Source: Desulfomarina profundi (GTDB lineage: Bacteria > Desulfobacterota > Desulfobulbia > Desulfobulbales > Desulfocapsaceae). From it: a stretch of 64,000 nt of DNA. The DNA lies in the NCBI RefSeq assembly GCF_019703855.1, contig NZ_AP024086.1:2872501-2936500 (forward strand), written 5' to 3'. Below the pieces are notes generated by a model. The model saw only the letters and a program-made list of their open reading frames with translations. It searched no databases and was not told where the DNA came from. Numbering within the stretch: the stretch's first letter is position 1; each line of letters begins with the position of its first letter. This document shows positions 6,370 to 35,329 of this stretch, in pieces. A program made the translations under genes and the position numbers.

Positions 6370-8571
6370 ATGTTATTGGACAGGATCATGATTTCGGCAC
6401 TTCTTTTGTCTGCACTCTGCCTGGTTGGGGAAAACGCTCAGGCAAAAAAACAGTTTCCTGCCACACTGCCGCCTGCCATGAATATACCCCAGGCAGTCCC
6501 CCAGAATATTCCGATACCGCAGCTGAAAAAACCGGAAACAGGGCCACCACCATCTGTTCCGGTTCAAAAAACCAAACCGTCAAAAATCCCGACTGCAACG
6601 ACACAGTCCATGACCGAAGTAAAACAACCCCCCATCCCCATCAACAGCAAAAAAGTACTCCCCCGAAAACGACAGTTACTTCCTCCTGTCGGGAAAAAAT
6701 CCGTCCTGTCATCTATCGGGAAAAATGATTATTCCATCAAAAAACTTGAAATGATCACCGCCGGCCCCGGAAAGGGGCGGATCGCCATTACAATCAAGGC
6801 GACTACAATCACGGGCAAAAAACCATCCCCCCAACCCTATCCGCTGCGACTGAAGAAGGGAAACAGAACGGTCTGGCAAGGTACGGGAAAAATAAAAAGA
6901 ATGTCTTTTGGCTGGGGAGACAAAATAGTTACATCCTATGTTCCTCCCGCCGGAACCACGCGACTCAAGGCGGAGGTAAACGTCTTTAATATGCGCAACC
7001 GGGTTCCTGAACTTACAGGGCGCACCGCCAACAACACCATATCCAGAAACATTGTACGAAAAGTACCTCAGGGGAAAACTGTAAAACCTGTAAAATCAAC
7101 CATTGTCCTGGCAGATTCCTCCCTGAAAAACAATCCTTCCATAAAAAATATACGTCTGCCATCAGCTGTGAAGAAAAAGATAACGGACAGAAAAAAGTTT
7201 CCCGAAAAAATTGTGCCGATCGGTGGTGGAGCCTCCCTGCCGGCAGCAAACCTCAATCACGGAGACCTGTCTAACCTGGCAGGACGTGAACGAAATCTCC
7301 CCCGCATTGATCCCGAGGCAATTGGAGATATAGTCAATGATTCCTGGGGAAGTTACTGGGGAGAACTGGAAATTATTGATATGAGAGAGTTACGTGGCGG
7401 TCCGAACAGTCACAAAATTGCTATCACTATCAGCGCAAAAAAGGTTTTCAAAGATTATCCCCGTAATATGCCCTATAAAGTTCTTCTTAAAAATGGCACA
7501 GAAGTATTGTGGGAGGGAACCGGCCATGTAAAAAACATACTTTTTGGCTGGGGCGATTATATTGTCACCGATTATATCGCTGGGGAAGCGATTATGCTCG
7601 AAGCAGTCATCAACCCGAGGAACAGTGACGGCTCATTTGATTACCAGGAATACGACACCAGACGCGGAAACACTCTCTCCAAGCCATTCCATTGGCAGCG
7701 GTTCAGGGGATATAGCGCACCGGGAACTGCAACAGAACGGGTAGTACTGACACCACGGGAACCGGAAACCGAAAGGTACGGACTCCGGCTGATCAACATC
7801 AGGCGGGAACAGGAAGGGCCCGACTGGAGCCGGATAAAAGTAACTTACGATTTACCTAAAACGTTTCGTCAGAGTGGAGGGCGATGCACGTTCAGCGCGT
7901 ATGGAGCCGAAGGAAGGTCCCGCCACGAAACCTATCGAAATAGCCGGGTACAATGTATTCCAGCTCCAGTACAGACAACCCGCCGTGTCCCCGTCGGTCG
8001 TTTGCAGCAATACGAATTCACCTGCAGGGTCAGTCCAGGTGTTTTCGGAGTGGAACCCTTCATCGCAGGCGAAAATGTTGAACTGCTCTGCGAATCGCCA
8101 CGGGGCGGACAGATAGTCAAAATCGGTCTTGGTCAAAAACAGTGGACCCCCAGGGCATCAGTCTGGGATCAGTGGGGACCAACCGTGGACGATATAGAAG
8201 ATCTTTTCATTCCATTCGCCTACATCGAGGGGAGAAACAAACCTCGCGTCCTGCGCCTGAATGTCAGTAACGCCAGACCTCGTGCCGTAACACGAGTTCC
8301 GGTTCGGGTCGAACTGGTGCGGGCAGGAGCGGTTGTTGAGACTTTAAACTTTGAACTTCCCGCAGCAGGGCTGCCGTACAATCCGAGAGCCGGAGATAAA
8401 CTGCTGAACATTGAGGATGGATCAGGTTGGGAATGGGCGGAAGTGGAGGATGGCAGGCTGGATGCAAGCTGGATCAATATCACTGTTGACCCCGATTCTC
8501 AAATCAGAGACAGCAGCAGGCGTAACAATCATTTCCGTGTTGATGTCAGCGGATTCTATCCGAAGCGTTAG
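6370..8571 (+). CDS. Secreted protein with duplicated FGWGD module
   Basis: I do not recognise this family. The start at 6370 is chosen because AGGAGGG lies seven bases upstream and the protein then begins with a clean signal peptide ending near QAKK; an upstream ATG at 6328 lacks a ribosome site. After a proline/lysine-rich linker come two copies of a roughly 95-residue module. Each contains an IAITI strand, a TVWQGTG or VLWEGTG turn and an FGWGDxIVT motif (about residues 125-210 and 330-420). The C-terminal 120 residues look like an Ig/CARDB-type beta domain (VLRLNVSNARP onwards). It is likely periplasmic or extracellular. Partner and ligand are unknown. Confidence 0.6.
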   Translation: MLLDRIMISALLLSALCLVGENAQAKKQFPATLPPAMNIPQAVPQNIPIPQLKKPETGPPPSVPVQKTKPSKIPTATTQSMTEVKQPPIPINSKKVLPRKRQLLPPVGKKSVLSSIGKNDYSIKKLEMITAGPGKGRIAITIKATTITGKKPSPQPYPLRLKKGNRTVWQGTGKIKRMSFGWGDKIVTSYVPPAGTTRLKAEVNVFNMRNRVPELTGRTANNTISRNIVRKVPQGKTVKPVKSTIVLADSSLKNNPSIKNIRLPSAVKKKITDRKKFPEKIVPIGGGASLPAANLNHGDLSNLAGRERNLPRIDPEAIGDIVNDSWGSYWGELEIIDMRELRGGPNSHKIAITISAKKVFKDYPRNMPYKVLLKNGTEVLWEGTGHVKNILFGWGDYIVTDYIAGEAIMLEAVINPRNSDGSFDYQEYDTRRGNTLSKPFHWQRFRGYSAPGTATERVVLTPREPETERYGLRLINIRREQEGPDWSRIKVTYDLPKTFRQSGGRCTFSAYGAEGRSRHETYRNSRVQCIPAPVQTTRRVPVGRLQQYEFTCRVSPGVFGVEPFIAGENVELLCESPRGGQIVKIGLGQKQWTPRASVWDQWGPTVDDIEDLFIPFAYIEGRNKPRVLRLNVSNARPRAVTRVPVRVELVRAGAVVETLNFELPAAGLPYNPRAGDKLLNIEDGSGWEWAEVEDGRLDASWINITVDPDSQIRDSSRRNNHFRVDVSGFYPKR

Positions 8572-23050: not shown

Positions 23051-24270
23051 ATGAATGAAATAATTTTCGGCATACTCTGTTTCTCAGGCCTGCAGCTCAT
23101 CCTGGTCACCCTGATTGTGGCGGCCAAAAAAACCCTGCTTCCGGGAGGAGAGGTGGCCATAACAGTCAATGAAGACAAACAGTTCAGCACTTCACCGGGC
23201 GGAAAGCTCCTCACCACCCTTGCCGGACACGGTGTAATCCTCTCTTCCGCCTGCGGTGGCGGTGGCAGTTGCGGCCAGTGCAGGTGTATCGTCAGGGAAG
23301 GCGGAGGCTCAATCCTGCCCACGGAGCGGGGTCAGATCAATAACCGTGATGCCAGAAACGGGGTGCGGCTCTCCTGTCAGGTTCCTGTGAAAAGGGATAT
23401 GCTCATTGAGGTGCCACCGGAAATGCTCGACGCCAGAAAATGGCTCTGCACTGTACAGTCCAATCGTAATGTGGCAACGTTCATAAAAGAACTGGTATTA
23501 AAACTGCCCGAAGACGAGGAAGTCAACTTCCGTGCCGGCGGCTATATTCAGATAGAGGTACCGCCCCACACCCTGGAATACAGGAATTTTGATATTGATG
23601 AACGTTTTCTCTCCGACTGGACAAAATTCAAGATGTTCCAGTATCGTTCCCATGTCTACACTCCCGTTACCAGGGCCTATTCCATGGCCAACTGGCCCGG
23701 TGAAAAAGGCATCATCAAGCTCAATGTCCGTATTGCCAGTCCGCCTCCGGGCAGTGACGCCTCTCTGCCCCCGGACAGGTTTCCTCCTATATCTTCAACC
23801 TGCAACCGGGAGACGAGGTGACCATTGCCGGGCCATTCGGAGAATTTTTCATGGACGACAGCGATTCGGAGGTGATGCTCATCGGCGGCGGGGCTGGAAT
23901 GGCGCCTCTGCGCAGCCATGTCTTTGATCTTTTCAGGGGCAGGAAGACGAAGCGGAAGGTCTCCTACTGGTACGGAGGCCGCTCCCTGCGAGAAGTTTTT
24001 TACGATGATGAGTTCAGGGCGCTGGCAGAAGAGTTTGATAATTTTTCCTTTCACCTGGCTCTCTCCGATCCACAGCCGGAAGACAACTGGAGTGGCTACA
24101 CCGGTTTTATCCACCAAGTTGTTCTGGACAACTACCTCAAAGATCATCCGGCTCCTGAGGATATTAATTACTACCTGTGCGGCCCGCCCATGATGACCAG
24201 GGCCGTCTTCGAAATGCTGGAAGAACTTGGAGTTGAAAAGGAAAATATCCATTTTGACGATTTCGGATAA
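23051..24270 (+). CDS. nqrF: Na+-NQR subunit F (NADH oxidising), reading frame broken once
   Basis: The NADH-oxidising subunit has an N-terminal helix, a 2Fe-2S ferredoxin domain ([13 protein letters not shown] then LSCQV), an FAD-binding RAYSMANWP and an NAD-binding [12 protein letters not shown]. The frame breaks at the C run 23768-23772. One added C gives [19 protein letters not shown] joined to [10 protein letters not shown], which is the canonical sequence, and restores about 407 residues. Unrepaired, the protein would lose its whole NADH domain and the complex would be dead. As in nqrA, a sequencing error is the simplest explanation. Confidence 0.88.
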
Positions 24271-24625: not shown

Positions 24626-25069
24626 ATGATCATAGACGAAACAAACATGGGAATTCTTCGGCATCTCAAGGATGGCAGGAAGTCCTATAAGCTGATTGCC
24701 ACTGAACTGTCCATTACTGAAAATACGGTAAGATCCAGGGTAAAAAAACTGATTGAGGAAGGCATCCTCGATATTTCCGGAAACGTCAGTATAGACTCCC
24801 TCACCGGCCACAACCTGCTCTATCTCGGGGTAAAACTGAAAACGATGGAACTGCAGGAAAAAGCCGCCGAATTCAGTCGGTTGAAAGGTGTTGTTTCCGT
24901 TGGAATTGTCACCGGGAGATATGATCTTATCCTCCAGGTTCTCCTGGGACCTGAAAATACACTGCTTAAATTTATCACGCGCCAGGTGGCGAAAATCGAA
25001 GATGTACAGACTATTGAGAGTTTTATTGTTTTCGAGGGATATAACTTGAGAGTTCCCTATATTCTTTAA
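24626..25069 (+). CDS. Lrp/AsnC-family transcription regulator
   Basis: This 147-residue regulator has an N-terminal winged helix-turn-helix (ILRHLKDGRKSYKLIATE, then TVRSRVKKLIEEG). A C-terminal ligand-binding RAM domain follows (VSVGIVTGRYDLILQVLLG). Such proteins usually sense amino acids. It lies 156 bases upstream of alanine dehydrogenase on the same strand, so control of ald by alanine or a related amino acid is likely. That link is inferred from position. Confidence 0.88.
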   Translation: MIIDETNMGILRHLKDGRKSYKLIATELSITENTVRSRVKKLIEEGILDISGNVSIDSLTGHNLLYLGVKLKTMELQEKAAEFSRLKGVVSVGIVTGRYDLILQVLLGPENTLLKFITRQVAKIEDVQTIESFIVFEGYNLRVPYIL

Positions 25070-26341: not shown

Positions 26342-26407
26342 TACCCGGGTTCAGCCTGTTGAAACAGATGATGCAGGCTGAAAATACACCCCTCTCCCCA
26401 TTACGTT

Positions 26408-26445
26408 ACCCGAATACATCATGTGAATTCATGATGTATTCGGGT
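26408..26445 (+). terminator. Terminator hairpin after ald
   Basis: A perfect 16-bp stem (ACCCGAATACATCATG and its complement) with a six-base loop lies 66 bases after the ald stop. AAAAAAGTACCCTTTTT follows. A weaker hairpin (TTCAGCCTG/CAGGCTGAA) lies between them. It separates ald from the regulator gene. Confidence 0.75.
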
Positions 26446-26588
26446 AAAAAAGTACCCTTTTTAAGTCTGCAGGTGTATACTGGTTGTTTGTTGCAGACCC
26501 TTTTCCTCTACCACACTCACTGCTGATACTTTTGATCTTTTGAGCACTGAAACAACAAATCGACCATCAGTTCCGGAGAGAGCCTCTG

Positions 26589-28450
26589 ATGTCTCGCCAT
26601 TCGAGCAATTCTGAAATACAGAACAACCTGAACCTGCCCGATCAGTTTCTCCAGAACGGTTCCAATGAACTGGGACATTTCATATTTTACAATCTGCCAA
26701 TCGGTATATTCCGGAGTATTCCCGACGAAAATGGTCACTTTATCCTCGCCAATCCGCCACTTGTTAAGATGTACGGGTACTCCAGAGTTGAAAACTTTCT
26801 CAAAATACCGGTCAATAAAACTTACTGGGATCCGAATGATCGGAAACTGCTTATTGCGGAATTGCTCTCACACAATGAAGTCAACCGTAAAGTAATTAAA
26901 TTCAAAAAAAAGAACGGTGACTTTTTCTGGGGGCAGTGACAGCAAGAGTCAGCAGGGACAGGAAGGGAAAAGCCATTTTTTTTGATGGTGCAATAGAAGA
27001 TATTACCCTGGCAAAGGAAAATGAACTGAGACTGACTGAAGAACGGATCTTTTCTGATTCCATTCTCGAGGCTCTGCCCGGTCTGTTCTGGCTCAATGAT
27101 GAAAATGGACGCTGTATCCGCTGGAATAAAAATGTTGAACTGGTCTATGGGTATAGTGCCGAAGAAATCCAGAACCTTCACGCAATTAATGACGTTACCG
27201 CTTCTGAAAGTATTGCAGCCCTGCAAAAAGCAACAGCCAATGCCCTGAAAGGAAAATCTGGGTATTGTGAGTATGAGATAAAAACAAAATACGGCAGGAA
27301 GATATCTTTTGCCGGCGATGCACGCCTGGTGACGATAAATAACAAAAAATACCTGGCCTGTGTTGAGCTCGATATATCAAAACGTAAAGCTGTTGAAAAA
27401 CAGTTACGTGACGCACTCCGGGAAATACAGCAGCTCAAGGACAAAACAGAGGCTGAAAATGTTTACTTGCTGGATGAAATAAACAGTGAAACAAATGAAG
27501 ATATAATGATTGGCAGGAGTTCACAGTTTATCAGCATGCTACACACTGCCAAAAAAGTGGCCCCGACCAACGCAACGGTACTCATCCAGGGAGAAACCGG
27601 AACCGGAAAAGGTCTGCTGGCAAAATATATCCACCGTAAAAGTCCGAGAAGCAGACGGGCCCTGATAAAGCTTAACTGCGCAAATCTCCCTCCCACGCTG
27701 ATCGAAAGCATTCTTTTCGGCCATGAAAAAGGAGCCTTTACAGATGCTGCGGCAATACGTATAGGCCGGTTCGAACTTGCCCATGAATCTACTATTTTTC
27801 TCGATGAAATTGCCGAACTGCCATTGACTCTGCAGGCAAAACTGCTCCGCGTGATCGAAGAAGGTGAGTTCGAACGACTTGGCGGCACAGAAACAAGAAT
27901 TGTCGATGTCAGGATCATCGCCGCAACCAACAGGAACCTTGAAGAAGAGGTTAAAGCTGGTAATTTCCGTCAGGATCTGCTGTTTCGCCTGAATGTATAT
28001 CCGATTTCTCCCCCACCCCTGCGAACACGGAAAGATGATATCCCGCTGCTGGTACAGTTTTTTATCAACAAGTTTAATAAATCTCTGGGTAAATCCATTT
28101 CAATGATCCCCAATGAAGTCATGGAAAACTTCATGAACTATTCCTGGCCCGGGAATATCAGAGAACTGCAGAACGTCATTGAACGCGATATGATTAACAG
28201 CAGTGGAAAGACATTGCAAAAAAGCACCCTTACGACTTCTTCTCCCGGCAATCCTGAGGAAGGTGCGATGGCGACTAAAACTCTACAGGAAATTGAATCC
28301 GCACATATTATTCGCGTTTTAAAACAGACTGACTGGGTAATAGAAGGGAAAAACGGGGCGGCGAGAATCCTTGATCTGAATCCCAGTACTCTTCGAGGTC
28401 GCATGCGAAAGCTGGGAATCCGCCGACCCGCTCCTGTTCCTCAGTTCTAA
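26589..28450 (+). CDS. PAS-domain sigma-54-dependent activator, reading frame broken once
   Basis: This enhancer-binding protein has two PAS sensor domains (about residues 30-140 and 155-285), then an AAA+ domain with Walker A GETGTGKG, Walker B TIFLDEIAELP and the arginine-finger region. A C-terminal Fis-type helix-turn-helix follows (GAARILDLNPSTLRGRMRKLG). The sigma-54 contact loop reads GAFTDA instead of the usual GAFTGA. The frame is broken in the G run 26929-26933; adding one G joins GDFFWG to AVTARVSRDRKG within the first PAS domain. It probably activates the divergent-free, downstream aminotransferase-TRAP-AOR operon, whose sigma-54 promoter begins 342 bases after its stop. Confidence 0.85.
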
Positions 28451-28498: not shown

Positions 28499-28514
28499 CC
28501 GTCATATTTGACGG
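28499..28514. promoter_or_regulatory. Upstream activator palindrome 1
   Basis: CCGTCATATTTGACGG is a near-perfect 16-bp palindrome. The same half sites recur at 28683 and 28701. It is a likely binding site for the Fis-type domain of the adjacent sigma-54 activator, about 285 bases before the promoter. Confidence 0.55.
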
Positions 28515-28539
28515 ATAAGCGACATTCCCCCGGCAACGA

Positions 28540-28564
28540 CTGCATTTCAGGGTTTGAAATGCAG
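28540..28564 (+). terminator. Hairpin after the activator gene
   Basis: CTGCATTTCA pairs perfectly with TGAAATGCAG across a five-base loop, followed only by TTTACT. It may end the activator transcript, but the T tract is poor. A second perfect 11-bp palindrome (GAATTATTGAT) lies at 28639-28664. Confidence 0.4.
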
Positions 28565-28682
28565 TTTACTCGCCATTATTTCAAAAAATTGGATTAATTT
28601 TCCTTCTTTTTTCACCAGTAGATTATTCATAACACACTGAATTATTGATCATTATCAATAATTCCTTCCAGGAGCCAAACAG

Positions 28683-28716
28683 CCGTCATATTTAACAGTG
28701 CCGCCATATATGACGG
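28683..28716. promoter_or_regulatory. Paired activator palindromes 2 and 3
   Basis: Two 16-bp sites, CCGTCATATTTAACAG (28683-28698) and CCGCCATATATGACGG (28701-28716), resemble palindrome 1 and lie 18 bp apart centre to centre. Their distance of about 90 bp from the -24/-12 promoter is normal for enhancer-binding proteins. Binding by the neighbouring activator is inferred. Confidence 0.6.
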
Positions 28717-28791
28717 TCGATAACAAAAAGTCTCCCAGGTATCTTTTGTCATCTATCTGCATTCACGACATTTTCACCATAAAAACCTCCA

Positions 28792-28807
28792 TGGCACGGA
28801 CATTGCT
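28792..28807 (+). promoter_or_regulatory. Sigma-54 (-24/-12) promoter of the aminotransferase operon
   Basis: TGGCACGGACATTGCT matches the consensus TGGCACG-N4-TTGCW at every fixed position, with correct spacing. It lies 70 bases before the preferred start codon at 28878. It shows that the frame upstream from 28698 is not translated, since it would overlap the promoter. Confidence 0.85.
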
Positions 28808-28877
28808 ACCCGGTCTATGGAAAAAATTTCCGGAAAATCAAGAGCAACAAACCAACACCAAAGAAAAGGAGTGCATA

Positions 28878-30269
28878 ATGATTCATGAAGAACACCTCGC
28901 GGAACTATCATATGAAGAGGCTCCAAAAATTATAACAGACCAGATCCCCGGCCCGAAAACCCAGGAAGACCTGGAAAGATCAATTCAGTTCGAATCCATG
29001 GCAAGAGGCGGGGGCAGGTTTCCTCTCGTTTTTGCCGAAGGCCGGGGAGCAACAGTAAAAGATCCCGACGGAAATATCTATATTGACATTACAGCGGGGG
29101 TTGCCGTCAATTCAGTAGGCAGGTGCAACCCGAGAGTAGTAACCGCAATGAAGGCACAAATGGATACGCTTATGCATGCAAGCGATATCTCCAATGTAAA
29201 AAGATCCCAGCTCGGTGAAGTTATCGCTGGGATAATGCCGGGCAGTCTGAAAAATAACTGCATAACCTATTTTACCCAGGGAGGCAGTGGTGCTGTAGAA
29301 ACAGCAATAAAATTCGTGCGAAAGATCACCGGCCGCAGCCAGATCGTCGCATTCCACGGCGCCTACCACGGTGTCTGGTGCGGCTCGAACTCCCTTACGA
29401 CTGGAGACCAGTACCGGAAAGGATATGGTCCATTTATTCCGGGAGTGATTCACTTGCCTTACCCATACTGCTATAGATGCTGCTTTGGATTAAAATACCC
29501 CGACTGCAACCTTCAGTGCGCTCAATATGTGGACTATGTCCTCAACACTCCATACACAGGAGCTGATGATGTGGGAGCCCTTATTATCGAAGCCCAGCAG
29601 GGCGAAGGCGGATACCTGCCACCTCCTCCAGGCTATCTGTCCATCGTTAAAAAAGCATGTGAAAAACATGGTGCGCTGTATATTTCAGATGAAGTCCAGG
29701 CGGGTGCCGGTCGAACCGGAAAAATGTGGTGTATTGAGCACAGTGATGTCGAACCGGACATGATTACCTGGGGCAAAGGCATGGGTGGTGATGTTCCCAT
29801 GGCCGGGCTCTCCATCAGAAAAGATCTGGCGGAACATATCGAAGATCATTCGCAACCCAACACTTTTGCAGGCAATGCGGTGAATGCTGTAGCCTGCATG
29901 ACAAACATAGAAATCCTGACTGAAAACGACCATGCCCTGATCAAACGTGCAGGAACCGTTGGAGAGGAAATTTTAACATATCTGCAAAAAGAGGCTGAAT
30001 CAATAGACATTATAGGTGATGTCCGTGGCCGGGGATTCATGATCGGCATTGAAATGGTCAAAGACAAGGAAAGTCGGGAGCCCCTGGAAAATGACAAGGT
30101 GGTTTCCATGATTATGGCCATGCTTGGCAAGGGTCTGGTCATGGTCCCCTGTGGACGGTTCGGCAATGTGTTCCGGTTTATGCCGTCCCTGATCATCACA
30201 AGAAATCACGCCCGGATTTCGGCTGACATCTTGCTGGAAACAGCACGTGAAATCCAAAACAACAGTTAG
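28878..30269 (+). CDS. Class III (omega-amino acid) PLP-dependent aminotransferase
   Basis: This 463-residue aminotransferase is of the GabT/taurine:pyruvate group. AAAGGAG precedes the start at 28878. The pyridoxal phosphate lysine is K300 in TWGKGMGGD, with YISDEVQAG carrying the cofactor aspartate. A cysteine-rich insertion (C198, C201, C202, C210, C214) marks a subgroup. It should remove the amino group from a terminal amine such as GABA, beta-alanine or taurine and give alanine or glutamate. It is the first gene of a sigma-54 operon with TRAP transport and AOR genes. A repeat begins at its stop codon. Confidence 0.88.
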   Translation: MIHEEHLAELSYEEAPKIITDQIPGPKTQEDLERSIQFESMARGGGRFPLVFAEGRGATVKDPDGNIYIDITAGVAVNSVGRCNPRVVTAMKAQMDTLMHASDISNVKRSQLGEVIAGIMPGSLKNNCITYFTQGGSGAVETAIKFVRKITGRSQIVAFHGAYHGVWCGSNSLTTGDQYRKGYGPFIPGVIHLPYPYCYRCCFGLKYPDCNLQCAQYVDYVLNTPYTGADDVGALIIEAQQGEGGYLPPPPGYLSIVKKACEKHGALYISDEVQAGAGRTGKMWCIEHSDVEPDMITWGKGMGGDVPMAGLSIRKDLAEHIEDHSQPNTFAGNAVNAVACMTNIEILTENDHALIKRAGTVGEEILTYLQKEAESIDIIGDVRGRGFMIGIEMVKDKESREPLENDKVVSMIMAMLGKGLVMVPCGRFGNVFRFMPSLIITRNHARISADILLETAREIQNNS

Positions 30270-30442: not shown

Positions 30443-31504
30443 ATGAAAAAGCATGTACCCTTTTGCTGCACTCGCCTGTTCTGCCTTACAGTTGCCATTA
30501 TTTTCACAATCCTTCCCATCCACAGGGCAACAGCAGCAAAAACATATCGAATGAAAATACAGTCTGCCTATCCCCGGGGTGACCTGTCCATGGAGCTCCT
30601 CAAAGTTTTTGCTGACTCGGCGAAAAAAAACAGCGACGGACAAATAAAATTAAGAGTTTTTGCAGAACCGGAACTGGTCCCCGGCGACCAGTTGTTCGGT
30701 GCTACAAAACAGGGTGTTGTCGACATGCTCCAGGCAATGGGTGGATTCTGGTCAGGTATTATCCCGCTTGGAAATGTTGAATTCAATCTTCCCCTTGCTT
30801 ATCGAATGAAGAAAAATATGACCTTCAAGGAAAAAGCCGAAGCGGTCCGCAGTTTTATAATGCAGCCCGAGGTTATAGGTCTGCTGCGAAAGGAATATGC
30901 AAAGCACGGCTTCTATTATCTTGATATCCACACCTATGGACCTGTACCCTTCGTTCTTTCCACAAAGCCGATCAAGGATTGCAGCGACCTTAAAGGAATG
31001 AAAATAAAAGCGGACGGCATCAACCGGACATTTCATAGCAGTGTTGGTATGCAGGCTGTGGACATGTCTCCAACTGAGACCTATATGGCCCTGAAACTTG
31101 GAGTGGTAGATGCGGCAGAATGGGATGTAAGTGCCGTTACCGGGCTTAAATGGCATGAAGTTGCCCCGTACTGGGTAAAAGGTATGGAGAGTGACCACAC
31201 TCTCGGCCACATTCTCGTCAGCCTGAAAAAGTGGAATAAATTGCCGGACAACATCAAAAAGGCTCTGCATGCTGCCGCTGAAGATTACTGGCATGCCACC
31301 GTCGATGCATATCAAAAAGAACTTGAGACTGTTAATCAATTGGTAAAAGAAGGTAAAATTACAGAAAATATTCTCAGTGAATCCTGTCAGCAACAGTATG
31401 CTGACGGTGCCCGCAAAATCTGGACCGATGTTGCTGCGGAAGACCCTGCAAACGCAGAAATGATTGGCTACATCAAGGCCTGGCTCAAAAAAATGAACAA
31501 CTAG
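30443..31504 (+). CDS. dctP: TRAP transporter substrate-binding protein DctP
   Basis: This 353-residue periplasmic binding protein has a signal peptide ending near HRATAA. The DctP fold is shown by the N-terminal RMKIQSAYPRGDLSMELLK, the arginine-containing LKGMKIKADGINRTFH, and MSPTETYMALKLGVVDAAEW. It captures the substrate of the operon for the DctQM membrane pair. Known DctP proteins bind carboxylates, amino acids or sulfonates; the ligand here is unknown. Its stop codon coincides with the start of repeat copy E. Confidence 0.9.
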   Translation: MKKHVPFCCTRLFCLTVAIIFTILPIHRATAAKTYRMKIQSAYPRGDLSMELLKVFADSAKKNSDGQIKLRVFAEPELVPGDQLFGATKQGVVDMLQAMGGFWSGIIPLGNVEFNLPLAYRMKKNMTFKEKAEAVRSFIMQPEVIGLLRKEYAKHGFYYLDIHTYGPVPFVLSTKPIKDCSDLKGMKIKADGINRTFHSSVGMQAVDMSPTETYMALKLGVVDAAEWDVSAVTGLKWHEVAPYWVKGMESDHTLGHILVSLKKWNKLPDNIKKALHAAAEDYWHATVDAYQKELETVNQLVKEGKITENILSESCQQQYADGARKIWTDVAAEDPANAEMIGYIKAWLKKMNN

Positions 31505-31789: not shown

Positions 31790-32290
31790 GTGCAGACTTT
31801 GAAAAAATTGACGGCAAGTATCAAAAGATGCATTGAATCGATCGGCAGCGTCACAAGTTTTCTTATTCTCGTAATTATCGCAATCACTACCTATGAAGTT
31901 GTTGCCCGTTACGCCTTCAACTCGCCAACCAGCTGGGCCTGGCCGATCAACAAACAGCTCTTTGCTGTTTTTGTTATGGTTGCCGGGAGTTACACACTCA
32001 TCCATAAGAGTCATATCAGAATAGAAATGCTCTATGAACGATTCCCAGGATATATGAAAAAAACAGTCAACCTGTTGACGCTTCTTGCAGCGCTCTGCTT
32101 TCTCGGGAGCCTGCTGTGGAAAAGCAGTTCCATGGGTTTTGATGCCTGGCAGAACAAGGAAAAAATGGTAGGTGTTTTCAAACTCCCCCTCTATCCATTG
32201 AAAATGCTGATCCCAATAGGCACAGCAATTTTTCTTGGAGCCTGTTTTGCAATTTATATTGGAGACAGGGATAAGGGAGGGGAAAAATGA
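31790..32290 (+). CDS. dctQ: TRAP transporter small membrane subunit DctQ
   Basis: This 166-residue protein has four membrane helices and the DctQ motif VVARYAFNSPTSWAW in the second. It forms the integral membrane pair with DctM. The frame is read from a GTG at 31790; a TTG at 31799 (giving MKKLTASIKRC) has the better-placed AAAGG and is the likelier start. Its stop overlaps the dctM start by four bases. Confidence 0.85.
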   Translation: MQTLKKLTASIKRCIESIGSVTSFLILVIIAITTYEVVARYAFNSPTSWAWPINKQLFAVFVMVAGSYTLIHKSHIRIEMLYERFPGYMKKTVNLLTLLAALCFLGSLLWKSSSMGFDAWQNKEKMVGVFKLPLYPLKMLIPIGTAIFLGACFAIYIGDRDKGGEK

Positions 32291-33588
32291 GCATTGGCCT
32301 GATTACTATCCTACTGTTTGGAGGCCTGCTCACGCTCCTGCTCCTCGGAATTCCGGTAACTTTTTCCCTTGGAAGTATCACAGTTGTTCTGACATACCTG
32401 GTCGAAGGCCCTGATTCCCTCTATACTGTTGCAACTACAACATATCAGCAAATTACAAGCCCCACTTTGATGACCATTCCCCTCTTTTTAATAATGGGAA
32501 ATTTCCTTGTAAAATCAGGGATATCAGAACTAATGTACAACGGGTTAAGCTACTGGCTGTCCGGACTGCGGGGAGGGCTTGCCATTGTTTCAATCGGTGT
32601 CTGTGTCAGTCTGGCAATGTGCGGCGGCTTTGGCCCCGGTATTCTTACAATGGGGCTTGTTGCCGTGCCTGCAATGCTGAAGCACGGTTACTCAAAAAAC
32701 ATTGCACTTGGTTCAGTCATGGCCGGAGGCGTGCTGGGGGAAATCATCCCGCCTGCGATCATTATGATTATCTTCGCCTTTATTGCCCGTATTTCCATCG
32801 GAAAGCTTTTTTTTGGCGGTTTCATTCCCGGGCTGCTGCTGGCCTGTCTCTATATCATCTTTATTGTTATTACCGGTATAATCAATCCCCTGGCTTTGCC
32901 AAAAACTACGGTTGATGTCTCCTGGTCAATGCGCTTCAGGGTGCTGAAGGAAATCACCTTACCGGCCCTGCTTGTTTTACTGGTACTCGGCTCAATTTTC
33001 AAAGGAATTGCCACTCCAACAGAGGCTGCGGCCGTGGGAGCTCTGGGTTCTATCATTATCTGTGCAATTTACGGGAAACTGAGCAAGGAAGTAATAAAGG
33101 AATCCTGCCTGGAAACACTGAAAATCACGGGTATGGCACTGTGGATTCTCATCCCGGCTACACTTCTCGGAGTCTTCTATGTCTCGGTAGGTGCTCAGGA
33201 TATGATAATGGAACTCATAGATTCCCTTTCCGTAAACCGCTATGTGATTCTCTTCTGTATGCAGATCATACTTCTCATATTCGGTATGTTCATGGACGAC
33301 TATGCCGTCGTTACCATCTGTGCACCGATCATGCTTCCCATAGCCACACTCCTCGGATTTGATCCGATCTGGTTTTCAATACTTTTTATTCTTAACATGC
33401 AGATGGCCTACATGACCCCGCCATTCGGCTGGGCATTGATCATGATGAAAGCGGTAGCTCCTCCCGATGTCACAACCAGGGATATATGGAAATCAATACC
33501 ACCGTTTGTTCTGATTCAATTTTTCGTCCTGCTCCTGGTCATGATTTTCCCGGCCCTGGCTACATGGCTGCCGAACCGGATGTTTTAA
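32287..33588 (+). CDS. dctM: TRAP transporter large membrane subunit DctM
   Basis: This is a 433-residue protein with about 12 membrane helices. It carries the DctM signatures IPLFLIMGNFLVKSG and GGVLGEIIPPAIIMIIFAF, and the substrate/sodium region MQMAYMTPPFGWAL. It uses a sodium gradient to move the substrate delivered by DctP. The nearby Na+-NQR could supply that gradient. Coupled to dctQ by overlap. Confidence 0.92.
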   Translation: MSIGLITILLFGGLLTLLLLGIPVTFSLGSITVVLTYLVEGPDSLYTVATTTYQQITSPTLMTIPLFLIMGNFLVKSGISELMYNGLSYWLSGLRGGLAIVSIGVCVSLAMCGGFGPGILTMGLVAVPAMLKHGYSKNIALGSVMAGGVLGEIIPPAIIMIIFAFIARISIGKLFFGGFIPGLLLACLYIIFIVITGIINPLALPKTTVDVSWSMRFRVLKEITLPALLVLLVLGSIFKGIATPTEAAAVGALGSIIICAIYGKLSKEVIKESCLETLKITGMALWILIPATLLGVFYVSVGAQDMIMELIDSLSVNRYVILFCMQIILLIFGMFMDDYAVVTICAPIMLPIATLLGFDPIWFSILFILNMQMAYMTPPFGWALIMMKAVAPPDVTTRDIWKSIPPFVLIQFFVLLLVMIFPALATWLPNRMF

Positions 33589-33616: not shown

Positions 33617-35329
33617 ATGAAAAAAATATTGCGCATCAACCTTACAGACCAGACCTTTCAGTTCGAAGATATTCGGAACCAATATATCCATCTGGGCGGC
33701 CGGGGACTCAGTTCAAAAATCATCAATGACGAAGTAAAACCTGACTGTGACCCCCTCGGCAGTGATAATAAAATTGTTCTGGCACCGGGTATCCTGTCAG
33801 GGACGAAAGTGCTCTGTAGCGGCAGGTTGTCGGTGGGTACAAAAAGCCCACTGACCAACACTATCAAGGAAGCAAACGCAGGTGGAGCCGTAGCAGCCCA
33901 ACTGGCCGGTCTCGGACTCCATTGTGTAATTCTCGAAGGATGCGGTAAAAACCATACGCTGGTGAAAATAACACCCGAAGGTGTTATTTTTGTGCAGGCG
34001 GACAAGCTTGCACGAAAGGGGAATTACCAATGCGTGGAAATACTCCGTAAGGAACACGGCGATGAAATCGGCATCATCAGCATAGGACCAGCCGGAGAAA
34101 TGCAACTGAAAGCTTCGGCAATTGCTGTATCTGCCAGGGATCATCATCTCAGGTTTGCCGCCCGCGGCGGTGTCGGTGCCGTAATGGGCTCCAAAAATCT
34201 CAAGGCAGTAGTCATTGATACAGGTGGGAAAAAAGAAGCAACACCAAAGGATGCACCCCGATTCGACAGGGCAGCCACAGCCCTTGCCAAAGGTGTTGCC
34301 GCCCATCCGTTGATTGGAGGGTTGAAAAACCTGGGCACTCCTGTGCTTGTCAATATGATAAATGCTCTTGGTGCTTTGCCAACCAAAAATTTTTCCAGTG
34401 GTCAATTCAAGTTCGCCGAACAGCTATCGGGAGAACAACTAGCAGAACTCATCTCAAAACGCCCGGATGCACAGGCATCACATGCCTGCATGAAAGGGTG
34501 CATAATCCATTGTTCAAATATATTGACAGACGATAACGGAAATCTCATCTGCAGCTCCATTGAATACGAAACTCTTGCCCTCCTGGGCAGCAACTGCATG
34601 ATCGGTGACATCGAAACTGTCGCCCGTTTAAACAGGCTCTGCAACGACCTGGGTCTTGATACAATGGAAGCAGGTGGGGCACTGGCAATAGCAATGGAGG
34701 CCGGCAAACTTCCCTGGGGTGACGGTGAAAAAGCCCTTTTACTTCTGAACTCTATCTATGACGGCCATGAAAATGGCCTCATGATAGGCAATGGTGCTCA
34801 CTTTACCGGGAAAACACTGGGTGTAACACGAATTCCCAGTGTGAAAAAACAGTGCATTTCCGGTTATGATCCAAGAGTGTTGAAGGGTACGGGTGTCACT
34901 TACGCGACCTCAACCATGGGAGCGGATCATACCTGCGGCAATGCACTTCCAAGTCCAGCCAATCCGGAATACAATCCTTCATCCCCCACGGGACAGGCCC
35001 CAGTATCTCAATTTCTTCAAGCCTACTTCGCGGCAATAGATTCCCTTGGTCTTTGTCTCTTTGCTTCGTTGCCGGTTCTCGATATTCCTGAACTCAAACA
35101 ACATATCATAGAATGTGCTTCAGCAATGCTGGGAGAACCGTTAAGTGATGAGTACATTGAACAACTGGGTGAAAGCGTGATTAAAACTGAAAAAAGTTTC
35201 AACAAAGCTGTCGGATTTGACAGACAGGACGACAGATTGCCCGATTTTTTCAGTCATGAACCTCTCCCCGAAAACAATGCAGTTTTTGATGTGTCTGATG
35301 AGGAGCTGGACAGTGTCCACTCTGGTTAA
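33617..35329 (+). CDS. aor: Tungsten-type aldehyde:ferredoxin oxidoreductase
   Basis: This 570-residue AOR-family enzyme oxidises an aldehyde to its acid and reduces ferredoxin. ARGGVGAVMGSKNLKA (residues 182-197) is the pterin-binding signature. C291, C295, C299 and C480 are placed as 4Fe-4S ligands. It is the last gene of the sigma-54 operon, 28 bases after dctM, and so probably acts on the aldehyde made by the aminotransferase. No accessory ferredoxin or cofactor gene is adjacent. Length is slightly below the usual 600 residues. Confidence 0.88.
   Translation: MKKILRINLTDQTFQFEDIRNQYIHLGGRGLSSKIINDEVKPDCDPLGSDNKIVLAPGILSGTKVLCSGRLSVGTKSPLTNTIKEANAGGAVAAQLAGLGLHCVILEGCGKNHTLVKITPEGVIFVQADKLARKGNYQCVEILRKEHGDEIGIISIGPAGEMQLKASAIAVSARDHHLRFAARGGVGAVMGSKNLKAVVIDTGGKKEATPKDAPRFDRAATALAKGVAAHPLIGGLKNLGTPVLVNMINALGALPTKNFSSGQFKFAEQLSGEQLAELISKRPDAQASHACMKGCIIHCSNILTDDNGNLICSSIEYETLALLGSNCMIGDIETVARLNRLCNDLGLDTMEAGGALAIAMEAGKLPWGDGEKALLLLNSIYDGHENGLMIGNGAHFTGKTLGVTRIPSVKKQCISGYDPRVLKGTGVTYATSTMGADHTCGNALPSPANPEYNPSSPTGQAPVSQFLQAYFAAIDSLGLCLFASLPVLDIPELKQHIIECASAMLGEPLSDEYIEQLGESVIKTEKSFNKAVGFDRQDDRLPDFFSHEPLPENNAVFDVSDEELDSVHSG

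Follow-up and report, generated by a model that had tools for sequence, protein, structure and literature searches.

The window, as we call the whole analysed stretch of 64,000 nucleotides of Desulfomarina profundi DNA, holds near its middle an activator gene of the sigma-54 type, an intergenic region with a promoter and three related palindromes, and a five-gene operon for uptake and conversion of an amino compound. The host genome, a single contig of 4,307,339 bases, contains one rpoN-type gene (PF04552 match at G000:C1:3865069-3865542, E 2.9e-63). The features on which the argument turns are the following.

26589-28450, + strand: activator gene, PAS-PAS-AAA+-HTH, from ORFs and Pfam (PAS part 26589-26939, PAS-AAA+-HTH part 26936-28450)
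28499-28514, strand not applicable: distal 16-bp palindrome CCGTCATATTTGACGG, starting 293 bp before the -24
28683-28698, strand not applicable: first palindrome of a tandem pair, CCGTCATATTTAACAG, starting 109 bp before the -24, kept at the orthologous locus L028
28701-28716, strand not applicable: second palindrome of the pair, CCGCCATATATGACGG, at an 18-bp step from the first, kept in L028
28792-28807, + strand: sigma-54 -24/-12 element TGGCACGGACATTGCT (TGGCACG-GACA-TTGCT), 86 bp before the ATG, consensus score 12/12
28878-30269, + strand: class III aminotransferase, first operon gene, from Pfam, start backed by relatives
30443-31504, + strand: TRAP transporter binding protein DctP, from ORF and profile matches
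31790-32290, + strand: TRAP small permease of DctQ type, named by gene order and size, adjoining DctM in relatives too
32287-33588, + strand: TRAP large permease DctM, TIGR00786 above cut-off
33617-35329, + strand: aldehyde ferredoxin oxidoreductase, final operon gene, followed by a convergent gene, from ORF and Pfam

The activator combines a Sigma54_activat AAA+ domain (PF00158, E 1e-66) with a Fis-type C-terminal HTH (HTH_8, PF02954, E 1.4e-6), and its loop reads GAFTDA, GAFTGA being the consensus reading of the sigma-54 activator loop. Its next-best HTH relatives in its own genome are only 42% and 40% identical. A change of reading frame at 26936-26939 interrupts the first PAS domain, while an uninterrupted run of 504 codons encodes the AAA+ and HTH part. 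The nqrF gene of the same window is likewise split, at 23818-23821, into two overlapping frames that cover profile positions 1-238 and 256-404 of 405, and because both genes are broken within about 3 kb we suspect small assembly errors, though these may be true breaks. Genes for an Lrp/AsnC-type regulator (24626) and an alanine dehydrogenase lie upstream of the activator. By eye, the alanine dehydrogenase gene is followed at 26407-26446 by a terminator-like element, a perfect inverted repeat with 17-bp arms and then an A-run, GTACCC and a T-run.

Downstream, the aminotransferase start at 28878, on which the preliminary description had insisted, agrees with 15 full-length relatives (L028-L042, 72-78% identity) that align from query residue 1 or 2, and AAGGAG stands just upstream. 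The competing start at 28698, described there as ATG-like and as overlapping the third palindrome, is a GTG codon; the overlap itself is real, as the final base of the second palindrome is the first of this frame, which continues across the third. The gene content suggests that an amino compound is imported and transaminated with pyruvate, that the resulting aldehyde is then oxidised and that alanine is recycled. The aminotransferase scores under the cut-off of each of the 25 NCBIfam models listed, its best solved relative being annotated as 4-aminobutyrate aminotransferase and the following one as alanine/serine racemase, and the TRAP binding protein is distant from solved binding proteins. 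Taurine is a possible substrate.

All the named regulatory elements fall between the activator stop (28450) and the aminotransferase ATG (28878). The promoter given earlier as TGGCACG-N4-TTGCT at 28792 is indeed present in that form, and TGGCACGGACATTGCT carries the GG and GC dinucleotides of the -24/-12 element at standard spacing. The three palindromes announced at 28499, 28683 and 28701 were likewise found, directly 3′ of the PAS/AAA+/Fis-HTH activator gene and all within 218 bp, as imperfect repeats of 16 bp in which 7/8, 5/8 and 7/8 arm positions, respectively, are paired. A search of both strands of the 64-kb window at up to 3 mismatches returned 7 matches, 6 of them at the three sites, whereas shuffled windows gave a mean of 1.27 and reached 7 in one of 100 shuffles. 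Across the 4.3-Mb genome, the sites at 28499 and 28701 are the only ones within 0-1 mismatch of the palindrome consensus. With as many as 3 mismatches allowed, the motif is rarer (57+46) than its reversed control (78+77), and weak matches elsewhere in the genome are therefore meaningless. A wider regulon was not found in this genome, 4 of the 21 other palindrome-match loci examined lying within 600 bp of a sigma-54-like site and each of these sites scoring only 10.

The same intergenic region contains two further perfect hairpins, as the preliminary description had noted, with 11-bp arms at 28539-28565 and 28639-28664 (fold z-scores -4.1 and -3.6), and nothing among our analyses links them to the regulatory mechanism. 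The former lies about 90 bp past the activator stop, lacks a T-run and is perhaps a weak mRNA end structure. The inverted repeat at 28639-28664 holds TTGAT-N4-ATCAA (28645-28658), the Fnr-type consensus; at 0-1 mismatch, TTATTGAT-N4-ATCAATAA occurs in the genome only at this hairpin.

Repeated dyad sites upstream of a -24 element, conserved together with the activator, are found at one orthologous locus, L028 of genome G572, whose aminotransferase is 76% identical to that of the window. Its palindromes CCGTCATATTTGAAAG and CCGTTGTATTTGACGG are set at a 19-bp step; the first of them starts 108 bp upstream of the -24/-12 element TGGCATGAATGTTGCT, and a third, weak one is found another 83 bp upstream. 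When the two intergenic regions are aligned, the best segment is the pair itself (window 28682-28716, 80.6% over 36 columns, E 2.4e-4), with the first palindrome once more in second place (13 bp, E 0.01), while the distance from the -24 to the ATG is 399 bp in L028 versus 86 bp in the window. The G572 activator, 72% identical and encoded in one frame of 621 aa, has its gene some 9 kb upstream in the same contig and orientation. An exact 87-nt copy of the activator 3′ end is present on the aminotransferase side at L028:4173-4259, with its counterpart in L200 near 8170-8256 (- strand). These repeats flank a gene block (CoA-transferase-like, transporter-like and another enhancer-binding protein, EBP) between activator and target operon, and we infer that the block was inserted there while the sites and promoter were retained.

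Whether such an arrangement extends beyond one orthologue can be judged from the 600 bp 3′ of activator relatives in the phylum, a sample of 130 regions after removal of near-identical and short ones. Counting the window motif beside relatives (4/77 at up to 2 mismatches, 11/77 at up to 3) proved unconvincing as evidence, since permuted patterns, with means of 0.1 and 0.75, gave as many as 8 and 16, and a test of pair geometry was used instead. Seventy of the 130 regions have no sigma-54-like site scoring at least 10/12, and 54 have one together with at least 100 usable upstream bases. In these 54, the best two 16-mers were sought at steps of 12-33 bp, with a score for how palindromic and how alike they are. 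A step of 18 bp comes out best in 37 regions, and in 28 of the 35 pairs scoring at least 22; in these 28 high-scoring regions, the first site begins 128-134 bp before the -24. Shuffled regions reach a score of 22 in 0/540 cases and give step 18 in 4.3%, and coding DNA before the activator stop yields a score of at least 22 in 1/54 and step 18 in 0/54. The DNA 3′ of the assigned -12 gives a score of at least 22 in 6/54 and step 18 in 8/54, hits that we tentatively attribute to wrongly assigned promoters, some of these assignments probably being in error. With regions grouped at 50% identity or more around the pair, step 18 is still the best in 21/37 groups. The window pair, at step 18 and with a score of 24, starts about 22 bp (two helical turns) nearer its promoter than the pairs of the 28 high-scoring relatives, as does that of L028. 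Exact 5-bp dyads beside the relatives are of several site types, not one.

The palindromes do not accompany the operon as such. Thirty-nine loci encode relatives of the aminotransferase, and in 21 of these as much as 700 bp of upstream DNA (210 bp in L032) was searched for half-sites; the expectation that the 16-bp palindrome stands upstream of homologous operons held for L028 and for no other of the 21, and a general association is rejected. Sigma-54-like sites scoring at least 10 occur within 3.5 kb at 10 of the 21 loci, the promoter lying further upstream in operons led by a gene other than the aminotransferase, and of the nine loci with such a site other than L028, the six tested for pairs have none that reaches score 22, the best being 19 (L037, L039 and L046 left out). 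In the congener G002 (L166/L159, contig C153), the aminotransferase is 83% identical over its first 190 residues, where the contig ends, and the -24/-12 element TGGTATGTGTTTTGCT stands 86 bp from the ATG, the distance seen in the window; its upstream region has neither a palindrome match within 3 mismatches nor a pair scoring above 19. The genes upstream of this orthologue differ from those of the window, and the G002 operon probably answers to a different activator. The promoter type is thus kept more widely than this activator, as G002 and six other operons have a sigma-54 or sigma-54-like site without the pair. Across the congener genomes, palindrome hits occur at 2 mismatches only and are fewer than those of the reversed control in 5/7 genomes, exceeding it in the window's own genome, G000 (19 vs 17), and in G002 (7 vs 3).

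The type of half-site appears to follow the activator's HTH type. Site type agrees with HTH type in 36 of the 36 step-18 pairs with a readable HTH motif (from 37 step-18 regions), a match that is exploratory because the choice among three reference half-sites was forced and confined to step-18 regions, and the classes were drawn post hoc and follow relatedness. TGGTCA is best in 7/7 cases with x-R-S-T helices (6 after removal of duplicates) and CCTCAA in 16/16 with H before the final K (8), while N-P/A-S-T-L-R-A-R-M-R-K helices go with CCGTCA in 9 cases (5) and K before the final K goes with CCTCAA in 4 (4 after the same removal). The window helix, N-P-S-T-L-R-G-R-M-R-K with CCGTCA sites, fits this pattern. 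The near-identical L103 and L104 favour their best site type only by 23 to 21. Outside the step-18 set there are also misfits: L239, L122 and L082 have x-R-S-T but no TGGTCA pair, the pairs of L100 and L107, at steps 16 and 32, belong to other site types, and L241 and L068 share STLRGRMR with the window helix but have no high-scoring pair (21 and 20). As an exploratory rule, x-R-S-T would specify TGGTCA, P/A-S-T with R before the final K would specify CCGTCA, and P/S-S-T with H or K at that position would specify CCTCAA.

A relative of the activator with a PAS-PAS-HTH architecture, 340-347 aa long and devoid of the AAA+ domain, is encoded in four of the 257 genomes of the order searched (G001, G002, G003 and G006), all four belonging to the genus of the window:

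L162:6326-7369, + strand: AAA+-less PAS-PAS-HTH gene
L163:6196-7224, - strand: AAA+-less PAS-PAS-HTH gene
L164:88-1110, - strand: AAA+-less PAS-PAS-HTH gene
L165:5155-6177, + strand: AAA+-less PAS-PAS-HTH gene

Pairwise identity is 80-88% among three of the proteins and 67-69% between these and the fourth. The gene appears to be maintained by purifying selection, given a dN/dS of 0.13-0.24 (with dS above 1 for the fourth), and the protein is apparently a sigma-54 activator stripped of its motor. Its neighbours look, by eye, like pyrF and potassium-transport or cation-efflux genes. The genome of the window has the AAA+ form only, and in the genus one genome carries the motor-bearing activator against four with the motor-less form.

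The preliminary description had read the region as a sigma-54 control region with a bound activator, and the comparative evidence, namely the L028 locus and the tandem sites of the activator's relatives, supports this. Weighing against it are the presence of the palindromes at just one of the 21 homologous loci, the G002 promoter that lacks them, the shorter distance of the window pair from its promoter, the high-scoring pairs 3′ of the assigned -12 and the broken activator frame. Very probably, the region serves the aminotransferase-TRAP-aldehyde:ferredoxin oxidoreductase operon and is driven by the adjoining activator through the tandem and distal sites. The elements in the window, their conservation in L028, the recurrent geometry and the agreement of site with HTH type are observed here; the mechanism is modelled on the NtrC family, which by analogy supplies the binding of the activator, the DNA loop, assembly of the ring, the signal and the start of transcription. 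The one-component activator, made next door, would bind as dimers side by side at 28683 and 28701 and at the distal 28499 site. A signal received via the PAS domains would lead it to form an AAA+ ring, which could reach RNA polymerase-sigma-54 at 28792-28807 once the 75 bp or so of DNA in between form a loop. ATP hydrolysis would then open the promoter, with transcription predicted to start near 28817.

The strongest competitor, itself unlikely, accepts this architecture and holds that the activator of this strain is inactive through its broken frame, the operon being silent or driven by another activator. The frame change in the first PAS domain speaks for it, while the similar split of nqrF, which suggests small assembly errors, the open AAA+ and HTH part and the good preservation of sites and promoter all speak against. 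It is still less probable that the palindromes belong to another regulator, for instance of the Lrp/AsnC type encoded at 24626 or of the Crp/Fnr type, and that the sigma-54 promoter answers a different activator. The proximity of the Lrp/AsnC-type gene, the Fnr-type consensus in the 28639-28664 hairpin and the G002 promoter without palindromes would fit such an arrangement; however, 3′ of related activators, palindromes of the same type recur at a constant position upstream of the -24, and site type follows the HTH type of these activators. That the palindromes are repeated by chance in intergenic DNA with a sigma-54 promoter is barely credible: matches at 2-3 mismatches are frequent genome-wide and do not outnumber those of the reversed control, but three sites lie close together, matches at 0-1 mismatch occur nowhere else, the sites are conserved in L028 and their geometry recurs beside activator relatives.

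The sigma-54 control region proposed here is, in its layout, a further case of a known switch in which an EBP gene sits beside its target promoter. In Desulfovibrio vulgaris, the EBP gene DVU0569 is followed by the sigma-54 promoter of its target ald (PMC4641369). The likeness is one of topology, a one-component EBP gene and then the target's promoter, and the targets differ, alanine dehydrogenase there and the aminotransferase-TRAP-AOR operon here. The same study reports that the largest fraction of promoters lies no more than 100 nucleotides from the nearest EBP site, and that motif similarity is not always in step with similarity of the DNA-binding domains (PMC4641369). The EBP regulons described in Clostridiales have, as in the window, several UAS sites, which mostly stand 100-250 bp from the promoter, and an EBP gene near its target (PMC6615313). 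One such EBP, AorR, controls an aldehyde oxidoreductase gene, of which the window operon includes one, whereas a fixed 18-bp step between 16-bp palindromes is not described in the passages covered (PMC6615313). FhlA-, NifA- and NorR-type activators, which give the best full-protein NCBIfam scores, share with the window activator the AAA+ domain, the Fis-type HTH and sigma-54 promoters; the window activator differs in its PAS input and scores far under the equivalog cut-offs (356/830, 354/529 and 326/476). FhlA and NifA sites consist of half-sites, TGT and ACA, separated by 10-12 bp, in contrast to CCGTCA-N4-TGACGG in the window (PMC6615313). Literature searches on a tandem 18-bp rule, an HTH code, FhlA sites and AAA+-less EBPs brought up no such rule, code or EBPs in the text covered, mainly that of openly accessible papers without their figures and supplements.

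A broader reading, which we advance tentatively and at somewhat less than even chances, makes the window one case of a phylum-wide rule. FhlA-like activators of Desulfobacterota-type bacteria would use two 16-bp dyads set exactly 18 bp apart, about 131 bp before the -24, with a half-site readable from a few HTH positions, and the motor-less form in four congeners may read the same site at ordinary promoters. Were this rule true, the sites and targets of many orphan activators would be predictable from protein sequence. The recurrent 18-bp pair and the HTH-linked site type offer a testable link from orphan sigma-54 activators to their promoters and specificity residues, and the window joins activator, sites, promoter and target operon in a little-studied lineage.
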